A stretch of DNA of 52,720 nucleotides from positions 1 to 52,720 of the forward strand of contig JAFGAV010000005.1 of NCBI GenBank assembly GCA_016933515.1, in the 5' to 3' direction. The translations under genes and the position numbers were made by a program. The stretch comes from Candidatus Aminicenantota bacterium. Its GTDB lineage: Bacteria; Acidobacteriota; Aminicenantia; Aminicenantales; JAFGAV01. The notes beneath the pieces are model-generated. The model was not told the origin of the DNA and searched no databases. It was given only the letters and a program-made list of their open reading frames with translations. This document shows, one piece after another, positions 33,684 to 42,392 of the stretch (position 1 is the first letter of the stretch; the number at the start of each line of letters is the position of its first letter).

Positions 33684-34463
33684 TCAGTTTTCGGTCACAT
33701 ACTCCTTTTGGGAAAAGACCAGCCCGGCCGCGGCCAGGAAAACGACGGTTAAACCCGCAAGAATGAGGACCGCGAAGAGGGGCGGGCTGGGCTCGAGCAT
33801 CAGTCGCAGGAAGGAAAAGGTTTGTCCCGGCGGCTGGGGAATGAGCGATTTGACGTAGTGGGCGATGGCCAGCTTCTGGGTCAGGCCCGGAAAAAAGGCG
33901 ATCACGTTTTCCCATCCGAAACAGAACAGCAGTCCGAAGAAAATCGCCCTTTTGACGAACGTCCCCATCAGGGTGAACAGGGACAGATAACAGAGCAGGC
34001 TGAGGTCCAAAACCGCCGAATCTCTTGCGACCGAAAGCCAGGCCGACGGATCGCCGGCCCTCTCGATTTTCAGGATCAGAAATGAACCGAAAAGGCCGAT
34101 GTTCAGCACCGCCAGCGCATGGCCGGCCGAGGCCGCGAATTTCCCCAGGACCGCTGCCGGCCGCGACAGAGGCCGGGTGAGCAGATAGGCCAAGGTCCGC
34201 CCTTCGACCTCCTCGAGGACGACGGACGTCCCGAAGAAAAGCGCCAGCATCAACACCAGAAACTGGACATAAAAAGGAAGGATGACGTTGGAGTAGAAAA
34301 ATTCTCCCGAAAAGCCGCGCGGAGCGATCGAAAGGGCATGGCGCATCCTGAAGAGCAGGGAAAGCAGCACGGGAACGAGGCCCAGGGCGAAAAAGACTTT
34401 CGTCCTTTTGGCTCTCCGCCCCAGGCCGAAAAAGAAAACGGCGGCTCTCCATGCGGCTCTCAT
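33684..34463 (-). CDS. ABC transporter permease (ABC-2 type)
   Basis: GTSVVLEEVEGRTLAYLLTRPLSRPAAVLGKF plus multiple TM; directly after ATPase gene. Confidence 0.82.
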   Translation of the reverse strand: MRAAWRAAVFFFGLGRRAKRTKVFFALGLVPVLLSLLFRMRHALSIAPRGFSGEFFYSNVILPFYVQFLVLMLALFFGTSVVLEEVEGRTLAYLLTRPLSRPAAVLGKFAASAGHALAVLNIGLFGSFLILKIERAGDPSAWLSVARDSAVLDLSLLCYLSLFTLMGTFVKRAIFFGLLFCFGWENVIAFFPGLTQKLAIAHYVKSLIPQPPGQTFSFLRLMLEPSPPLFAVLILAGLTVVFLAAAGLVFSQKEYVTEN

Positions 34464-34464
34464 G

Positions 34465-35388
34465 TCATTTCCCCACCAGATAATCGAACACCGCCTGGAG
34501 GTTGTCGTCGGGCGAGGTGATCTCCTCAATCTCCAGATCGAGCTCCACGACGAGGGCCGGCAGTCCGCCGAAGAACAGGTCCCGGTTGTCGGTCTCGAGA
34601 GTCAGGAGCCCGTCGGGGCCGAAGTGAACCTTGAGGACGTGCGGCTCTTCCATCAGCCGGGCGGCGAGCTTTCGCGGCCGGTCGCAACGCAGGGCGACGA
34701 CGTGCGGATGGGCGTCGATGAGATCCCGGATGTCATGGATGTCGCCCGCAGCGATAATCTTTCCCTGATGCAGGAGACGGATATCCCGCGTCAGAGCTTC
34801 GACCTCGGGCAGGACATGGCTGGAGACGAGAATCGTTCTGTTCCCGGCCTTCAGCTCCTTGATCAGCCTGATGATCTTGCGCTTGCCGAGCGGATCCAGG
34901 CCGTTAAGCGGCTCGTCCAAAATCAGGATCTCCGGATCGTGGGCCAGAGCCTGGGCGACTTTCAGCCGCTGGCGCATGCCCCGGCTGTAGCCGCGGATAA
35001 GACGGTTCTCATCGCCCCAGATCTCCACGAGCCGCAGGGCCGATTCCGTCCGGCGCGCCGCTTCCGCGGCGCCGAAACCGTGGAGGCGGAGAAGACCGTC
35101 CAGGAATTGCCGGCCGGTCGTATCCTCGTAGAAGCTGTCGTGCTCGGGACAATAGCCGATCCTGCGGAACAGGGCGGGATTGTTCCAAACCCCTTCCCCG
35201 GCGAGGAGGACGCGGCCCAGGCTGGGCTTGAGCTGTCCGGTGAGAAGCTTCATCAGCGTCGATTTTCCCGCGCCGTTGGGACCCAGAAGCCCCGTGATCC
35301 CCGGCCCGATTTCAAGGCTGACCTCGCTCAGGCCGAGGATGTTGCCGTACCATTTGGACAGCTTCCGGGTTTGGATGACAGGCGTCAT
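34465..35388 (-). CDS. ABC transporter ATP-binding protein
   Basis: GLLGPNGAGKSTLMKLL, YSRGMRQRLKVAQALAHDPEILILDEPLNGLDP. Confidence 0.95.
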   Translation of the reverse strand: MTPVIQTRKLSKWYGNILGLSEVSLEIGPGITGLLGPNGAGKSTLMKLLTGQLKPSLGRVLLAGEGVWNNPALFRRIGYCPEHDSFYEDTTGRQFLDGLLRLHGFGAAEAARRTESALRLVEIWGDENRLIRGYSRGMRQRLKVAQALAHDPEILILDEPLNGLDPLGKRKIIRLIKELKAGNRTILVSSHVLPEVEALTRDIRLLHQGKIIAAGDIHDIRDLIDAHPHVVALRCDRPRKLAARLMEEPHVLKVHFGPDGLLTLETDNRDLFFGGLPALVVELDLEIEEITSPDDNLQAVFDYLVGK

Positions 35389-36254
35389 TTTATGATCGTG
35401 ACTCCGCGGATTCTTCGGTTCATCACCCACGCGCCCGCGGCGACGACCGCGGCCAGGACGACGAACGCATAGACGCTCGGCACCTCCAGGACCGGCTTCG
35501 TTCCGAAGAGCGGCGCGGCCGCGAGTTTGAGATTGGTCTTCACGGACACGAGCCCGACGTAAGGAGTTCGGAAGATGCCCCGCAGGATCTCGGCCAGCAT
35601 GTCCGAGAAGACGTAAATCCCGAAAATGAGAAAAGACGCCGTCCGCCTGTTGCGGCTGAGGGAGGAAAGCAGGAGGCTGTAAGAGGCGAAAAAGACCGCC
35701 GCCGCGGCGGAGTAAACGACGATCGCCAGAGGCAGCCCGGGATGGTCGCGCAGGAGCCCGAAGCTGCCGCTGAAGACGATCTTGAAGACGACGAGCAGCA
35801 GGCCGGGAACGAGCGTCAAGAGAAGAACGAAGAACATGACCACGGCCGCCTTGCCCAGGACGTAATCCCTCTTGGCCAGCGGGCGGGCGAAGTAAAGCTG
35901 CAGGGCGTTGTGCTTCAGGTCGTCGGCCACCAAGCCGGCGGCGCAGAAAATCAGAAGGACGACGGTCATGAACAACACGAAATCGGCCGTCAGGTAGGAG
36001 AGGAAGTATCCGGGAACCACACGGAGGGGCATGGCGCCCTTTCGGACGATCCCCTCGAAGTCCTGGAGCCTCTCCGAAAGGTAGATGCCCGCCAGGAACA
36101 CGAAGGCGGGGAGGAACGACAGGCTGAACGCGAACTTGAAATGCTTCCTCTTGAAGGCCAGACGGATGCCGAGGCGGGCGATGGGTTTCCAGCCCCGTCG
36201 ACGCTCTTCGAGGCGGCCGTCCCAGCGGTGATAGCCCTTCTCCCTGATGCTCAT
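35385..36254 (-). CDS. ABC transporter permease (ABC-2 type)
   Basis: ATG at 36254 overlaps ATPase stop; multiple TM; NALQLYFARPLAKRDYVLGK. Confidence 0.82.
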   Translation of the reverse strand: MSIREKGYHRWDGRLEERRRGWKPIARLGIRLAFKRKHFKFAFSLSFLPAFVFLAGIYLSERLQDFEGIVRKGAMPLRVVPGYFLSYLTADFVLFMTVVLLIFCAAGLVADDLKHNALQLYFARPLAKRDYVLGKAAVVMFFVLLLTLVPGLLLVVFKIVFSGSFGLLRDHPGLPLAIVVYSAAAAVFFASYSLLLSSLSRNRRTASFLIFGIYVFSDMLAEILRGIFRTPYVGLVSVKTNLKLAAAPLFGTKPVLEVPSVYAFVVLAAVVAAGAWVMNRRIRGVTIIK

Positions 36255-37183
36255 CCCTCCACCCCCACGCTCTGGGCGAAGAGATCCTCCAGGGAAGTCC
36301 GGCTGGGGAGAAAATGCCGGATCTGGGTGCGGTCCTCGGCCGCCAGGCGGAAAACTTTCTTTCTGTCCAGTCCGACCGGCATAAAAACGCGGAGAAGCCC
36401 GTCCTCGGTTTCCTCGACGCGGCATCCCAGACCCGTCAGATCCTTGAGGAATTTCCCGCTTCCTCCCTTGACGCGCATCTCGAAGAGATTGAAATTCGGT
36501 TGCCTCAAGTCGGCGAGCCGGCCAAGGGCCGCCACACGGCCTTTGTTCAAGATGACCGCCTGGGAGCAGACGGATTCGATGTCCGACAGGATGTGGGAGG
36601 AAATGAGGACCCGGATGTCCTTCTTGGCGGCGATGTCGGCGATGAGTTCCAGAATGTCCGTCCGCCCCCGCGGGTCCAGGTTCGCGGTCGGCTCGTCGAG
36701 GAAAAGAAGGGGGGGGTCGTGGACCAGGGCCTGGGCGAGCTTGAGTCTTTGTTTCATCCCCGCGGAGTAGGTCTCCAGAAACCGATAGCGGGCCTCTCCC
36801 AGTCCGACATAGAACAGAACGTCGTGCGCCCTTTTCATGGCCTCCTGGCGCGGCATGCCCGCCAGCTCCCCCAGGTAGGAGGTGAACGTCACGGCGTCCA
36901 TTCCGGGCAGGAGGCAGTCGTCCTCGGGCATGTATCCCACCCGTCGCCGGATGTCGTCGCGTTCGAACCTGATGTCATAGCCCAGGACCCGGCCTTCGCC
37001 GGAGTCGGGCTCCAAAAAACCGAGCAAAATGCGCAGCAGCGTGCTCTTGCCGGCTCCGTTGGGCCCCAGAAGCCCCGTCGCGCCTGCCCCGAGGGAAAGG
37101 CTGACTCCTCTGAGCGCCTCGATCGGGCCGTAGCTGTAAGCGATGTCTTTGAGCTCGATATCGACCGTTTTTCCGGCGCTCAC
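36251..37183 (-). CDS. ABC transporter ATP-binding protein
   Basis: GLLGPNGAGKSTLLRILLGF, YSAGMKQRLKLAQALVHDPPLLFLDEPTANLDPRG. Confidence 0.95.
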   Translation of the reverse strand: MSAGKTVDIELKDIAYSYGPIEALRGVSLSLGAGATGLLGPNGAGKSTLLRILLGFLEPDSGEGRVLGYDIRFERDDIRRRVGYMPEDDCLLPGMDAVTFTSYLGELAGMPRQEAMKRAHDVLFYVGLGEARYRFLETYSAGMKQRLKLAQALVHDPPLLFLDEPTANLDPRGRTDILELIADIAAKKDIRVLISSHILSDIESVCSQAVILNKGRVAALGRLADLRQPNFNLFEMRVKGGSGKFLKDLTGLGCRVEETEDGLLRVFMPVGLDRKKVFRLAAEDRTQIRHFLPSRTSLEDLFAQSVGVEG

Positions 37184-37250: not shown

Positions 37251-38888
37251 TCATCCGGAACCGCCGTCCTCCTTCGAAGACCGGACGAGCGTTCCCCGTC
37301 CGAAAACGATGGCCTCGTAGGCCTTGCGGACACGGTCCCAATTCTCCTCGCGGTCAAGCGGCCAGAATCGGCCCATGACCGTCACCACCCGGCCGCATCC
37401 CAGGCGGAGGCATTCCTCCTCGACCTTGTCCACGTACACGGCTCCGCTTTCGGGAATTTCGCCGCGCCGACCGATGAAACCGTGAATGAAAACGCGCTCC
37501 AACCCGCTGTCCCTCGCCAACCGGAGAAGGGCGAACAGATGTTCCAGAGTACCGTGGGAGCTGTAATGGGAGACGATGCCCATGAGATGAAGAGCCCGTC
37601 CCCGGCGCCGGGCCGCATCCGTCGCTTCCCGGAACGCGGCGTTGGAGGCAAAGCTCCCGTCCTCGATCGACCGGTCGATGCGGACCCGGTCGAGAGGAAC
37701 CCTCCGCCCGGCGCCGAGATGAAGATGCCCCGCCTCGGAGTTGCCCACCGTTCCGGCCGGCATGCCCACCGCCTCGCCCGCGGCTTGGAGCAAAGCTCGG
37801 GGATAACGGGACCAGAGACGGTCGAAGTTCGGCGTCCGGGCCTGAGCGATCATGTTGCCGCGGATCTCCTCCCGCATCCCCCATCCGTCCAAGACCAGGA
37901 AAAGAAGACGGGACCTCCGGGGAGTCCCGTCATTCGAAACCGTGTCCACAAGGCTTCGTCCGTTCATCTCTGCGGGCCGGCGGATTCCCAACATCGTCAA
38001 TGCGGTCGGAGCCGCGTCGGCCAGCTCGCCTTCGGGAGCCAGCCGCACGGATTCGGGACGGGGGAATCGAAAGTCGGCCACGAGGAACGGCACGCGGTTC
38101 CGGGTGTGGCCGGTGTTGATGGAACCGTCGTCATAAAGCCAATCCTCTACCGTTCCGTGGTCGGCGGTGACGACGAGCGCCGCGCGCTTCCGCTCGGCCG
38201 CCTCGGCGATCCGGCCGAGAACGAAGTCCACCGTCTCCACGGCGGTGAGAACGGCCTCCCGGCTCTCAAGATGACCCACCACGTCCACATTGGCCAGATT
38301 GGCGACGATGACGTCGGCGGTTTCATCGTCGAGGGCGCTTAAAATTTCCCGGCACACGTCCTGGGCGCTCATTTCCGGCCTTCGGGCGTATGACACATCG
38401 CCCGGCGGGGAGGGCACGACGATCCTGTGCTCTCCGGGGAAGGGCTCTTCGCGCCGGCCGTTGAAAAAAAATCCGACATGGACGGCTTTCTCGGACTCGG
38501 AGATCTTGACGACCTTGCAGCCGGCCCGGGTGAGGACTTCGGTCAGCGTGCCGCTCAGCCGCTCGTTCGGCGGGAAAGCGACCTTCACCCGGAGCTGCGG
38601 AGAGTATTCGATCATGGTCACGAAATGAAGGCTCAGGCCTTTTTTCACGGGGAAATGAGGGAAATTCTCATCGGTCAGGCTCCGGGTGAGTTCGACTTCA
38701 CGCTCGCCTCGGATGTCGTAGAAAACAATAGCGTCTCCCTCTTCCGGGCGCCCCAAGGGATTTCCCTCCGCATCGGCCAGCACGATCGGTTCCAGGGCCT
38801 CGTCCTCCTGACCCTTCCTGTAGGCGTCACGAACGGCCCTTCCCATCAGGGACGGGACCGGGAAGGCCGGCGGCGGTTTTGCGTTCAT
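37251..38888 (-). CDS. Circularly permuted cofactor-independent phosphoglycerate mutase (iPGM)-like protein
   Basis: 545 aa, ATG at 38888 with upstream GGGGGAG. Residues ~17-314 match the canonical C-terminal part (AIVFYDIRGER, HVGFFFNGRREEPFPGEHR, NLANVDVVGH, VTADHG, TGHTRNRVP, PAEMNGRSL); residues ~327-533 match the canonical N-terminal part (LVLDGWGMREEIRGN, GTVGNSEAGHLHLGAGR, HLFALLRLA, MGRFWPLDREENWDRVRKAY). Confidence 0.92.
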   Translation of the reverse strand: MNAKPPPAFPVPSLMGRAVRDAYRKGQEDEALEPIVLADAEGNPLGRPEEGDAIVFYDIRGEREVELTRSLTDENFPHFPVKKGLSLHFVTMIEYSPQLRVKVAFPPNERLSGTLTEVLTRAGCKVVKISESEKAVHVGFFFNGRREEPFPGEHRIVVPSPPGDVSYARRPEMSAQDVCREILSALDDETADVIVANLANVDVVGHLESREAVLTAVETVDFVLGRIAEAAERKRAALVVTADHGTVEDWLYDDGSINTGHTRNRVPFLVADFRFPRPESVRLAPEGELADAAPTALTMLGIRRPAEMNGRSLVDTVSNDGTPRRSRLLFLVLDGWGMREEIRGNMIAQARTPNFDRLWSRYPRALLQAAGEAVGMPAGTVGNSEAGHLHLGAGRRVPLDRVRIDRSIEDGSFASNAAFREATDAARRRGRALHLMGIVSHYSSHGTLEHLFALLRLARDSGLERVFIHGFIGRRGEIPESGAVYVDKVEEECLRLGCGRVVTVMGRFWPLDREENWDRVRKAYEAIVFGRGTLVRSSKEDGGSG

Positions 38889-38925: not shown

Positions 38926-39813
38926 TCACTCCAACCCCAGACAGAGAAGCGAGTAGGGATCCACGCGCGCTCCGCGGGCCCGAACGCTCCAATGAAGATG
39001 AGGCCCCGTGGAACGTCCGGTGCTGCCGACCGCGGCGATGACTTCCCCGCGCGCGACGGACTGCCCGGTCCGAACTTCAAGGCGCGAGCAGTGACAGTAA
39101 ACCGAAAAAATGCTCAGTCCGTGGTTGATGATCACGGTCCGGCCGGAAAAATAGAGATCCATCGCCAGCGCCACCTGTCCGGAATTGGAAGCCCGGATCG
39201 GAGAGCCCGCTTCGGCCGGGATGTCGACGCCGGTATGGCGGGAACGCGGGACGCCGTTGTACAGTCGATGCTCGCCGAAATTGAGCTTCGGCGCGTCGGG
39301 CAGGGGGGCGATGAAATCGCCGGAACCCAGCCATTCGGGGACGGCGTTCCGGTAGACTTCGGCCAAAATCGTTCTCTCCCGCGCCAACCGCTCCTCGAGC
39401 TCGGCCGGGGGTGTGACCAGCCTGGGATCCATTGCGATGTCGCGGCGCGAAAAAGACCGCTCATGAAGCCGAATGTATTTCTGAACGGTTTCCTTCCGGC
39501 CGGACGTATCGCTGAAGACGACCTCGACGCGGTACGATCCGGGTTCGGTCAAGAAATCCACTCCCACCAGAGCCAGGCGTTTTCCGGCCGGACCTCCGGA
39601 ATGGAAGTCATAGCTCTTTCTAAGAAAAGTGAGCCGGGCCTCCTGTCCTTCCTCCGCGGGGCGGAAAAGGGCGAGAAGCATTTCCCCCGGCCGGAGAGAG
39701 CGGGCCGTGATTTCGACGATCGCTCCGGAATGAGATTCAAAACGCAGAACGCCGAGCGCCCCGAGCCGGCAAAAGCCGAAAAGGACGGAAACCGTCAGGA
39801 TCCGCTTCCACAT
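38926..39813 (-). CDS. M23-family metallopeptidase
   Basis: SRHTGVDIPAEAGSPIRASNSGQVALA, VYCHCSRLEVRTGQSVARGEVIAAVGSTGRSTGPHLHWSV; signal-like N-terminus. Confidence 0.9.
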   Translation of the reverse strand: MWKRILTVSVLFGFCRLGALGVLRFESHSGAIVEITARSLRPGEMLLALFRPAEEGQEARLTFLRKSYDFHSGGPAGKRLALVGVDFLTEPGSYRVEVVFSDTSGRKETVQKYIRLHERSFSRRDIAMDPRLVTPPAELEERLARERTILAEVYRNAVPEWLGSGDFIAPLPDAPKLNFGEHRLYNGVPRSRHTGVDIPAEAGSPIRASNSGQVALAMDLYFSGRTVIINHGLSIFSVYCHCSRLEVRTGQSVARGEVIAAVGSTGRSTGPHLHWSVRARGARVDPYSLLCLGLE

Positions 39814-39839
39814 GACGGGCAGCCGTGAGCCTCGGGAAA

Positions 39840-40025
39840 TCATCGTTCAGCCCGCGGCCTCTTCCCCGACAAGGACTTCAAGATTTTTCCGGGGAGCCGC
39901 CCGCTGCGATCGAAGCGGAATTTCTCGGCGCTCCCTCTCCTCCAAGGGCCTGGGCCGCCGGATCCGGCCGCCGCGGCGGCCAAAATCCCGGTCACGAATT
40001 CCCCTCCCAACGTCCTCTCGAGCAT
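39840..40025 (-). CDS. Possible small protein (61 aa)
   Basis: ATG with GAGGAG upstream; TM-like FVTGILAAAAAG; weak support. Confidence 0.25.
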   Translation of the reverse strand: MLERTLGGEFVTGILAAAAAGSGGPGPWRRGSAEKFRFDRSGRLPGKILKSLSGKRPRAER

Positions 40026-40257: not shown

Positions 40258-41079
40258 TCAGAAGCGGACGGCGAGGCCGAAGGAAACGGGAGTGACGGCG
40301 GCGGAGACGCGGGCCCCGCTCTCCGCCGCCCGGTTCAGGTCGGCGATCTTTAAGGCGACGACATGGCCGAGGGCCGCGCCAAGCAGGACGTCCGAGGCCC
40401 AGTGCTTGTTGTCGTGGACGCGCGAGGCGGCCACGAGTCCGGCCAGGCCGTAAAGCAACGCATCCGCGACGAAGCTGTCCGTGCGGCAGGCGATCGACGT
40501 CGCCACGGCGAACGCGGAGGCCGCGTGGCCCGAAGGAAGGGACAGGTAGCCGGCCTGGAAGGTGAACGGCCGGAAATGATTCGCCGGCAATCCGAGCTCG
40601 GGCCGCGCCCGGCCGAGAAGGCATTTCAAGGTCAAAACGACGGCTCCCGATACCGCGAGACTCTCAAGACTCAGGACGGCCGTCTTCCGGGCGCCCCGGC
40701 TGGGCGCGACTTCGCCGGCCAGATAGAGTCCGGCCAGAAAAGCGGTCAGGTAGGCGGCGTCTCCTCCGTTCTCCATGAAACTCATGAAGCGGTTCGAATT
40801 CGGCGTGCGCCGTTCCTGAGCCCAGTCCCGGATGTCCTCGTCGCGGCTGTAGGCCAGTCCGGTGACGCCCAAAACGGCGGCACAGCCTAAAAATTCAACG
40901 GGTTTCCAGGAGAAAGGCGAAGCCAGTACGCCGCCCGCATCCCTGGCCAAGTGCGTCCAGAACTCGTTGTCGAGATGATACGCCCTCATCTCGGCGGGCT
41001 GGCCTCCGAAGGCCGGGACCGTCGAGACCAGAAGCGCCGCGGCCAAGAGAGCGGCGGCCTCGGGCCGGGATCCCCTCAT
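40258..41079 (-). CDS. PAP2-family phosphatase
   Basis: KCLLGRARPELG, SLPSGHAASAFAVATSIA, ASRVHDNKHWASDVLLGAALGH. Confidence 0.9.
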   Translation of the reverse strand: MRGSRPEAAALLAAALLVSTVPAFGGQPAEMRAYHLDNEFWTHLARDAGGVLASPFSWKPVEFLGCAAVLGVTGLAYSRDEDIRDWAQERRTPNSNRFMSFMENGGDAAYLTAFLAGLYLAGEVAPSRGARKTAVLSLESLAVSGAVVLTLKCLLGRARPELGLPANHFRPFTFQAGYLSLPSGHAASAFAVATSIACRTDSFVADALLYGLAGLVAASRVHDNKHWASDVLLGAALGHVVALKIADLNRAAESGARVSAAVTPVSFGLAVRF

Positions 41080-42392
41080 GACTTCCTCCGCGCGACGTCA
41101 GGGACGTCATAACTCTCAATGGCTTCCACGGTCCGCCCCGTGGCGCCCTGCAGGCTCTTCAGAGTCAGACGAGACCTCTCGCCCTGAACCTTCAGGCGGG
41201 CAGGGTCAGGGAAAAGAAACATTTCCCTCAGGTCCTCCGGAGTCCTCACCACCTGGGCGCCTCCGCCGGCCAGGAAGGATTCCGCCAGGCTCGAGAAATT
41301 GTGCATATGGGGTCCGAAAAAAATCGGTTTGCCGAAAGCGGCTGCTTCAAGCAGGTTGTGACCGCCCCAGGGAACAAGGCTTCCCCCAATGAAGGCCGCG
41401 TCGCCCAGGGCGTAAAATCCCGCGAGCTCGCCGATCGTGTCCAGAACGAGAACTTCCCACTCCCCTTCCTGCGGCGCGGCGGTCCGTCGGCGGACCCGGA
41501 GCCCCCGTTCCCGACAGGCCCTTTCGACGTCCGCGGCCCGTTCCACGTGCCGGGGCGCAAGGATGAGGAGAACGTCTTTCCGGACTTTCCTGGACTCGCA
41601 AAAAGCGTCCAGGAGAAGGACGTCTTCGCCCTCGCGGGTGCTGCCGGCGACAAGGAGCCTGTTCTCGGGGGCCAAGGCGATTTCTTTTCGGCGGCGGATC
41701 AGACTTTCCTCATCGATATCGTCAGGCACGATTTCACATTTGAGGTTCCCGGCAACGCGCACCTTTTCCGGATTCGCACCCGACCGGATCAACCTCTCCC
41801 GGTCCTGCTCGGTCTGAACGAGGAACAAGGAAACGTCGTTGAAAAGGCGTCGGGCCAGAAGTCGAAGTCTCCCGTATCGTCGAAACGACCTTTCCGAGAC
41901 CCGGCCGTTGACGACCAGCACCCCTCGGGTTCTTTTTCGGGCCTGGCGGAGAAGGTTGGGCCAGAGCTCGGACTCGGCCAAAACCAAAAGATCGGGTTCG
42001 AAGCGGCGAAGAAAACGGCGCACCGTCCAGCCGAAATCCAACGGGGCGAAGAACAGCCTGTCGGCCGCGTCCAGTTTTTTCCGGGCGACGTCCATGCCCG
42101 CCTGGGTCAGAACCGAGACATAGAGCGCCCAGTCGGGGTGCCTGTCCTTGATTTCCCGAGTCAATTTTTGGAGAGAGGTGACCTCTCCCACGGAAACGGC
42201 GTGCATCCAGAGGGAGAAGCGGCCGGGGGCCCGGGGCGGAAGGAGAAAACCCATCCTCTGCCGCAAGAAAAGGGGGGCCCTCCTTCCCAGCCTCATCCGA
42301 ACGAAATACGCGGGCAGCAGAACCGCCAAACCGAGGGTCAAGAACAAAGAATACAGAAAATACAAAATGTGCACGGGAGATGGACTATACAC
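41076..42392 (-). CDS. waaA: 3-deoxy-D-manno-octulosonic acid transferase
   Basis: SLWMHAVSVGEVTSLQKL, LFFAPLDFGWTVRRFLRRFEPDLLVLAESELWPNLL, GGHNLLEAAAFGKPIFFGPHMHNF; start position uncertain (GTG). Confidence 0.92.
   Translation of the reverse strand: MYSPSPVHILYFLYSLFLTLGLAVLLPAYFVRMRLGRRAPLFLRQRMGFLLPPRAPGRFSLWMHAVSVGEVTSLQKLTREIKDRHPDWALYVSVLTQAGMDVARKKLDAADRLFFAPLDFGWTVRRFLRRFEPDLLVLAESELWPNLLRQARKRTRGVLVVNGRVSERSFRRYGRLRLLARRLFNDVSLFLVQTEQDRERLIRSGANPEKVRVAGNLKCEIVPDDIDEESLIRRRKEIALAPENRLLVAGSTREGEDVLLLDAFCESRKVRKDVLLILAPRHVERAADVERACRERGLRVRRRTAAPQEGEWEVLVLDTIGELAGFYALGDAAFIGGSLVPWGGHNLLEAAAFGKPIFFGPHMHNFSSLAESFLAGGGAQVVRTPEDLREMFLFPDPARLKVQGERSRLTLKSLQGATGRTVEAIESYDVPDVARRKS

Follow-up and report, generated by a model that had tools for sequence, protein, structure and literature searches.

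The minus strand of contig JAFGAV010000005.1 of Candidatus Aminicenantota bacterium (GCA_016933515.1) encodes, within the 52,720-nucleotide stretch analysed here (the window), a homologue of cofactor-independent phosphoglycerate mutase (iPGM; PGM, phosphoglycerate mutase) whose two halves are swapped by circular permutation. The gene belongs to a real, maintained subfamily of Aminicenantes and relatives. Its product is very likely catalytically active, as judged from its conserved residues, and is probably not the housekeeping glycolytic mutase.

The permuted gene and its product

The gene is an open frame of 545 codons, whereas the plus-strand frame is interrupted by stops. In the translated protein, Pfam recognizes the domains Metalloenzyme (PF01676) and iPGM_N (PF06415), each in two stretches, and phmmer aligns both halves with iPGM of G. 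stearothermophilus (1EJJ; E = 6e-119), with the halves swapped. The iPGM equivalog TIGR01307 is matched with 455.1 bits (cut-off 330.65); this score and the 1EJJ alignment rule out a chance match or a misreading. With the stricter equivalog NF003897 (cut-off 862) the protein scores 383.7 bits; note that distant bacterial relatives with canonical order also fall below this cut-off (645 and 703 bits). The aPGM model TIGR00306 (cut-off 320 bits) gives 33.4 bits over 103 residues, which places the protein outside aPGM, and the Pfam search revealed no match to His_Phos_1 (PF00300, dPGM). An assembly artefact is ruled out, because 39 sequences drawn from many assemblies have their halves in the same order. 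The linker that joins the old termini varies among relatives in length and sequence.

An AlphaFold2 model of the protein (mean pLDDT 79, pTM 0.81) superposes with residues 13-315 on 1EJJ 214-510 (292 residues, 2.4 Å). In a fold search, iPGM entries reached Z 15-17, and every other fold Z ≤9. A match over a single segment should be the expected outcome when a sequence-order aligner is applied to a modelled permuted iPGM.

Table 1. Features of the permuted gene and its neighbours (window coordinates)
Feature	Position	Strand	Basis
Permuted iPGM-like gene, 545 aa (P0001)	37251..38888	-	ORF, Pfam, NCBIfam, 1EJJ alignment
Residues 18-314 = canonical iPGM 219-509; transferase domain (second half) and most of the phosphatase domain, with R60, R63, K134, D202, H206, D243, H244, H261	37947..38837	-	phmmer against 1EJJ, model fold alignment
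Linker, ~14 residues (315-328), canonical C-terminus to canonical N-terminus	37905..37946	-	gap between matched blocks
Residues 329-537 = canonical iPGM 7-215; start of phosphatase domain (D334, S384) and first half of transferase domain (H445, R475, R507, R513)	37278..37904	-	phmmer against 1EJJ
Altered loop 1, SHYSSHGT (canonical SDGGVHSH)	37548..37571	-	alignments
Altered loop 2, FIGRRGEIP (canonical FLDGRDVGP), D154 -> G476	37452..37478	-	alignments
Altered loop 3, FYDIRGERE (canonical FNFRxDRA), with R60/R63 (= R261/R264)	38697..38723	-	alignments
M23 peptidase, upstream neighbour, same direction	38926..39843	-	PF01551, synteny
ABC transporter ATPase, downstream neighbour	36251..37183	-	PF00005, synteny
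ABC-2 permease	35385..36254	-	PF12679, synteny
Second ABC transporter ATPase	34465..35430	-	PF00005, synteny
Second ABC-2 permease	33684..34529	-	PF12679, synteny
PAP2-family membrane phosphatase	40258..41079	-	PF01569, synteny
Kdo transferase (WaaA/KdtA)	41076..42392	-	PF04413, synteny

Substrate site and phylogeny of the permuted clade

The first-pass annotation had proposed that all seven metal and nucleophile residues are preserved, and the 1EJJ and family alignments agree (canonical/permuted: D12/D334, S62/S384, D403/D202, H407/H206, D444/D243, H445/H244, H462/H261). Its equivalences for the substrate site (R185/R507, R191/R513, R261/R60, R264/R63, K336/K134, H123/H445, R153/R475) are correct as well, and so are the two rewritten loops that it described, including the loss of D154 (loops 1 and 2, Table 1). 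Loop 2 carries the further replacements D151 -> G473 and G152 -> R474; the change of loop 3, M189L and D192E were absent from that annotation. Nine residues are published as contacts of 2PG/3PG, namely S62, H123, R153, D154, R185, R191, R261, R264 and K336 (PMC3886921). The permuted protein retains eight of them, D154 (Gly476) being the sole loss, and thus lacks the complete set of nine. One residue further lies an invariant glutamate, E477, in a region modelled only with pLDDT ~61; it could stand in for D154 upon a shift of the loop.

Full-length relatives (54-78% identity) are present in the order of the window genome, where the permuted gene was found in 27 of 40 genomes (the raw search tally of 28 included one weak unrelated match). 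Seven further genomes of the phylum sample, from families f7, f10, f15 and f29, possess it, and a contig scan for the permuted form returned matches in Aminicenantes-type contigs only. Besides Aminicenantes, the permuted clade comprises members of a few further families of this phylum. A contig labelled Clostridiales, JARYMI010000003.1 (L041), has the Aminicenantes gene block and probably comes from a mislabelled MAG.

In a tree of de-permuted sequences, the 39 permuted rows form one clade (support 100/100), whose stem has a length of 0.91 changes per site. The f10, f15 and f29 sequences nest within the Aminicenantes clade, and this placement suggests transfer. Permuted order and altered loops (GRRGE-PESG, SSHG[T/S], YD-RGERE) co-occur in all informative relatives: wherever a permuted row spans these sites, it shows [I/L/M]GRRGExPESG, SSHG[T/S] and RGERE together with intact catalytic residues, so that the loop change is not an oddity of one genome. 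Canonical-order rows retain DGRD and H123; the three most divergent ones (f15) align poorly in the loops and still have DGRD. Position 154 is Asp in all 24 alignable canonical relatives and was lost in all informative permuted rows.

Altogether, the permuted clade has 23 positions with a near-invariant residue that the 24 canonical relatives almost entirely lack. Among positions conserved within both groups, those lying at most two residues from the nine contacts differ between the groups in 9 of 15 cases, those elsewhere in 8 of 61 (Fisher p = 0.0004; the p value is indicative, given that proximity is sequential rather than spatial and that the rows share ancestry). Wider neighbourhoods around the contacts gave p = 0.001-0.006 in the same test. 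The suggestion of the first-pass annotation that an intact phosphatase-type centre is combined with altered recognition of the phosphoglycerate is therefore supported, as the invariant substitutions specific to the class lie preferentially around the substrate contacts.

Other phosphoglycerate mutases and the gene neighbourhood

A search for a further PGM, as the first-pass annotation had recommended, revealed an archaeal-type PGM (aPGM; NF003160/TIGR00306) in the window genome (G000), so the permuted gene need not be the glycolytic mutase. Apart from the permuted gene, PF01676 matched two fragments at the ends of contigs C7 and C61. Together they make up a single aPGM, the first covering its N-terminal part (positions 1-243 of the TIGR00306 model) and the second its C-terminal part (217-403), and they score 268 and 277 bits on NF003160. 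They share the peptide ANTILLRGFSRLPTLPSMSEVYKLRPAA. The two pieces (C7:10567-11259 and C61:33008-33520) overlap by ~28 residues, and C7 and C61 are thus probably neighbours on the chromosome. A full-length Aminicenantes aPGM reaches 591 bits on the NF003160 equivalog (cut-off 468). Neither a canonical iPGM (no iPGM_N match besides the permuted gene) nor a dPGM (no match to His_Phos_1/PF00300) was detected in the window genome.

In the order, 38 of 40 genomes possess aPGM; the exceptions are G035 and G015, and in G015 the search matched nothing but the permuted gene. An aPGM accompanies the permuted gene in 26 of 27 genomes (the remaining one is a 70% complete MAG) and is present in 12 of the 13 genomes that have no permuted gene. 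Among the seven permuted-gene genomes of the phylum sample, six have aPGM and one (G223) a divergent canonical iPGM. Both aPGM as the only PGM of a bacterium and two PGM types within one bacterium have been documented; the same survey of 702 genomes found iPGM paralogues to be rare and does not mention permutation (PMC2964296). The Aminicenantes aPGMs (L063, L064, L066, L068, L144-L148) have GED where the P. horikoshii enzyme (2ZKT) has GHD, i.e., the His of the D-x3-H metal motif is replaced by Glu. Because this His is a metal ligand in 2ZKT, their activity is only presumed from their family.

Six genomes (G002, G014, G022, G027, G029, G039; L057-L062) carry a second type of aPGM, with ~457-473 bits on TIGR00306, whereas the common type scores ~340-384. 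His_Phos_1 proteins of full length (195-213 bits) are encoded in G017, G021, G026, G032 and G035, i.e., in the sampled genomes of genus g12 except G038. These His_Phos_1-bearing genomes have no permuted iPGM, and no genome with the permuted iPGM has a full-length match to His_Phos_1.

The gene order KdtA-PAP2-M23-pIPGM-ABC-permease-ABC-permease is strongly conserved across the order. Readable blocks persist in genomes without the permuted gene (most of f7 and part of f2); in G029, just 51 bp separate the M23 and the first ABC gene. In f10, f15 and f29, the permuted gene is located elsewhere, next to other neighbours. As the block outlasts loss of the gene and the gene also occurs outside the block, the neighbourhood looks like inherited gene order and names no pathway; we therefore do not infer a functional link to the envelope or ABC genes. 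The permuted gene is dispensable, since 13 of the 40 genomes do without it. A glycolytic organism could not tolerate such a loss from the retained block if the gene encoded its sole PGM.

Neither a substrate nor a partner gene indicative of a particular reaction emerged from the loci read. In one f10 genome, a split pair of genes similar to phosphonopyruvate/sulfopyruvate decarboxylase (L158:6866-7911), below both equivalog cut-offs, lies two genes from the permuted iPGM; it was not seen at the other permuted-gene loci read, and a link to phosphonates is a weak lead. The two tandem ABC-2 exporters (ATPase-permease-ATPase-permease, window 33684-37183) include a first permease that every one of the 40 genomes encodes and that matches no NCBIfam model.

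Possible function and comparison with known enzymes

The first-pass annotation had further suggested a different substrate or a phosphatase/transferase variant. The second PGM in the genome and the remodelled loops speak for this, whereas the eight retained contacts, the many unchanged flanking residues, which would fit a 2PG/3PG-like ligand, and the score above the TIGR01307 cut-off speak against it, and E477 may replace D154. Because the loss of D154 and the rebuilt loops alter the part of the site that holds the glycerate, a changed acceptor or substrate or a bias towards phosphatase activity appears preferable to a redundant isozyme, and we give it about an even chance. An isozyme that still interconverts 2PG and 3PG, with E477 compensating for D154, and that serves beside aPGM in different conditions or when flux is gluconeogenic is a serious though less probable alternative. 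It would account for the retention of all catalytic residues and of eight of the nine contacts and for the TIGR01307 score, and several PGM types per bacterium have a precedent (PMC2964296); it sits uneasily with the invariance of D154 in canonical relatives and its disappearance from the informative permuted rows, with the gathering of invariant differences at the contacts, with the long stem branch and with the many genomes that keep aPGM and have no permuted gene.

It is improbable that glycolysis depends mainly on the permuted protein as its PGM while the aPGM-like protein has another role. The Glu in the metal motif leaves room for it, and so do related models, including PhpG and a proposed homoserine kinase, and the existence of aPGM-family members whose function differs or is unknown. 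Yet the full-length aPGM lies well above the NF003160 cut-off, with both pieces of the window genome matching as well, and aPGM is the more widespread of the two genes, 12 genomes having aPGM and no iPGM. A pseudoenzyme retained for binding, scaffolding or regulation is very doubtful: nothing direct apart from the altered loops would suggest it, and the seven metal and nucleophile residues are intact in every informative permuted row of several families, with open frames.

A further-reaching reading, to which we assign just under an even chance, is that the substrate of the permuted iPGM is now a small phospho-acid distinct from 2- and 3-phosphoglycerate, on which it acts as phosphomutase or phosphatase, forming a previously undescribed family that would have spread in the phylum by vertical descent, loss and some transfer. 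With the metal site, the nucleophile and the Arg/His/Lys anchors for phosphate and carboxylate intact, the protein would form a phospho-Ser384 intermediate, as expected from the iPGM mechanism, with a small phosphorylated carboxylic acid as donor. The phosphoryl group could then pass to another hydroxyl (mutase, with a substrate other than 2-/3-phosphoglycerate) or to water (phosphatase), while aPGM would perform the housekeeping 2PG/3PG conversion. A general route to circular permutations is duplication of a gene, fusion of the copies in frame and trimming, and the permuted gene most likely came about in this way; the new termini would lie within the transferase domain and leave the phosphatase domain continuous.

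The open-access literature searched (5.39 million papers) contains no description of a permuted iPGM; phosphoglycerate mutase and circular permutation are mentioned together just in passing. The permutation of a two-domain glycolytic enzyme and the remodelling of its substrate site correspond one-to-one, which makes the clade a natural case tying a change of topology to functional divergence, and the invariant differences provide a directly testable list of residues. Furthermore, the TIGR01307 cut-off would label the permuted proteins as gpmI, and metabolic reconstructions of Aminicenantes would assign them to glycolysis, probably wrongly.

Compared with iPGM/GpmI (TIGR01307; G. stearothermophilus 1EJJ/1O98), the permuted protein has both domains, the seven metal and nucleophile residues and eight of nine contacts in common, and each half is ~38-49% identical to the closest canonical relatives. 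It differs in having its termini near canonical 215-219 and the old termini joined by a short linker, in the absence of D154 and the change of three substrate-site loops, and in its TIGR01307 scores (~455-495 bits for permuted proteins, 706-742 for canonical relatives). With aPGM/ApgM (TIGR00306, NF003160), encoded in the same genome, it shares the superfamily and the nominal reaction; however, aPGM is a separate, shorter and unpermuted protein, and the similarity is confined to ~100 residues of the metal site. PhpG (NF038358, CMP-5'-phosphonoformate--3-phosphoglycerate phosphonoformyl transferase) is a model of the iPGM/aPGM group with another annotated reaction; it belongs to the aPGM side and is not permuted, and the permuted protein matches it weakly (25 bits, far below the 545-bit cut-off). 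PhpG illustrates, however, that enzymes of the iPGM/aPGM group are able to change their substrate.
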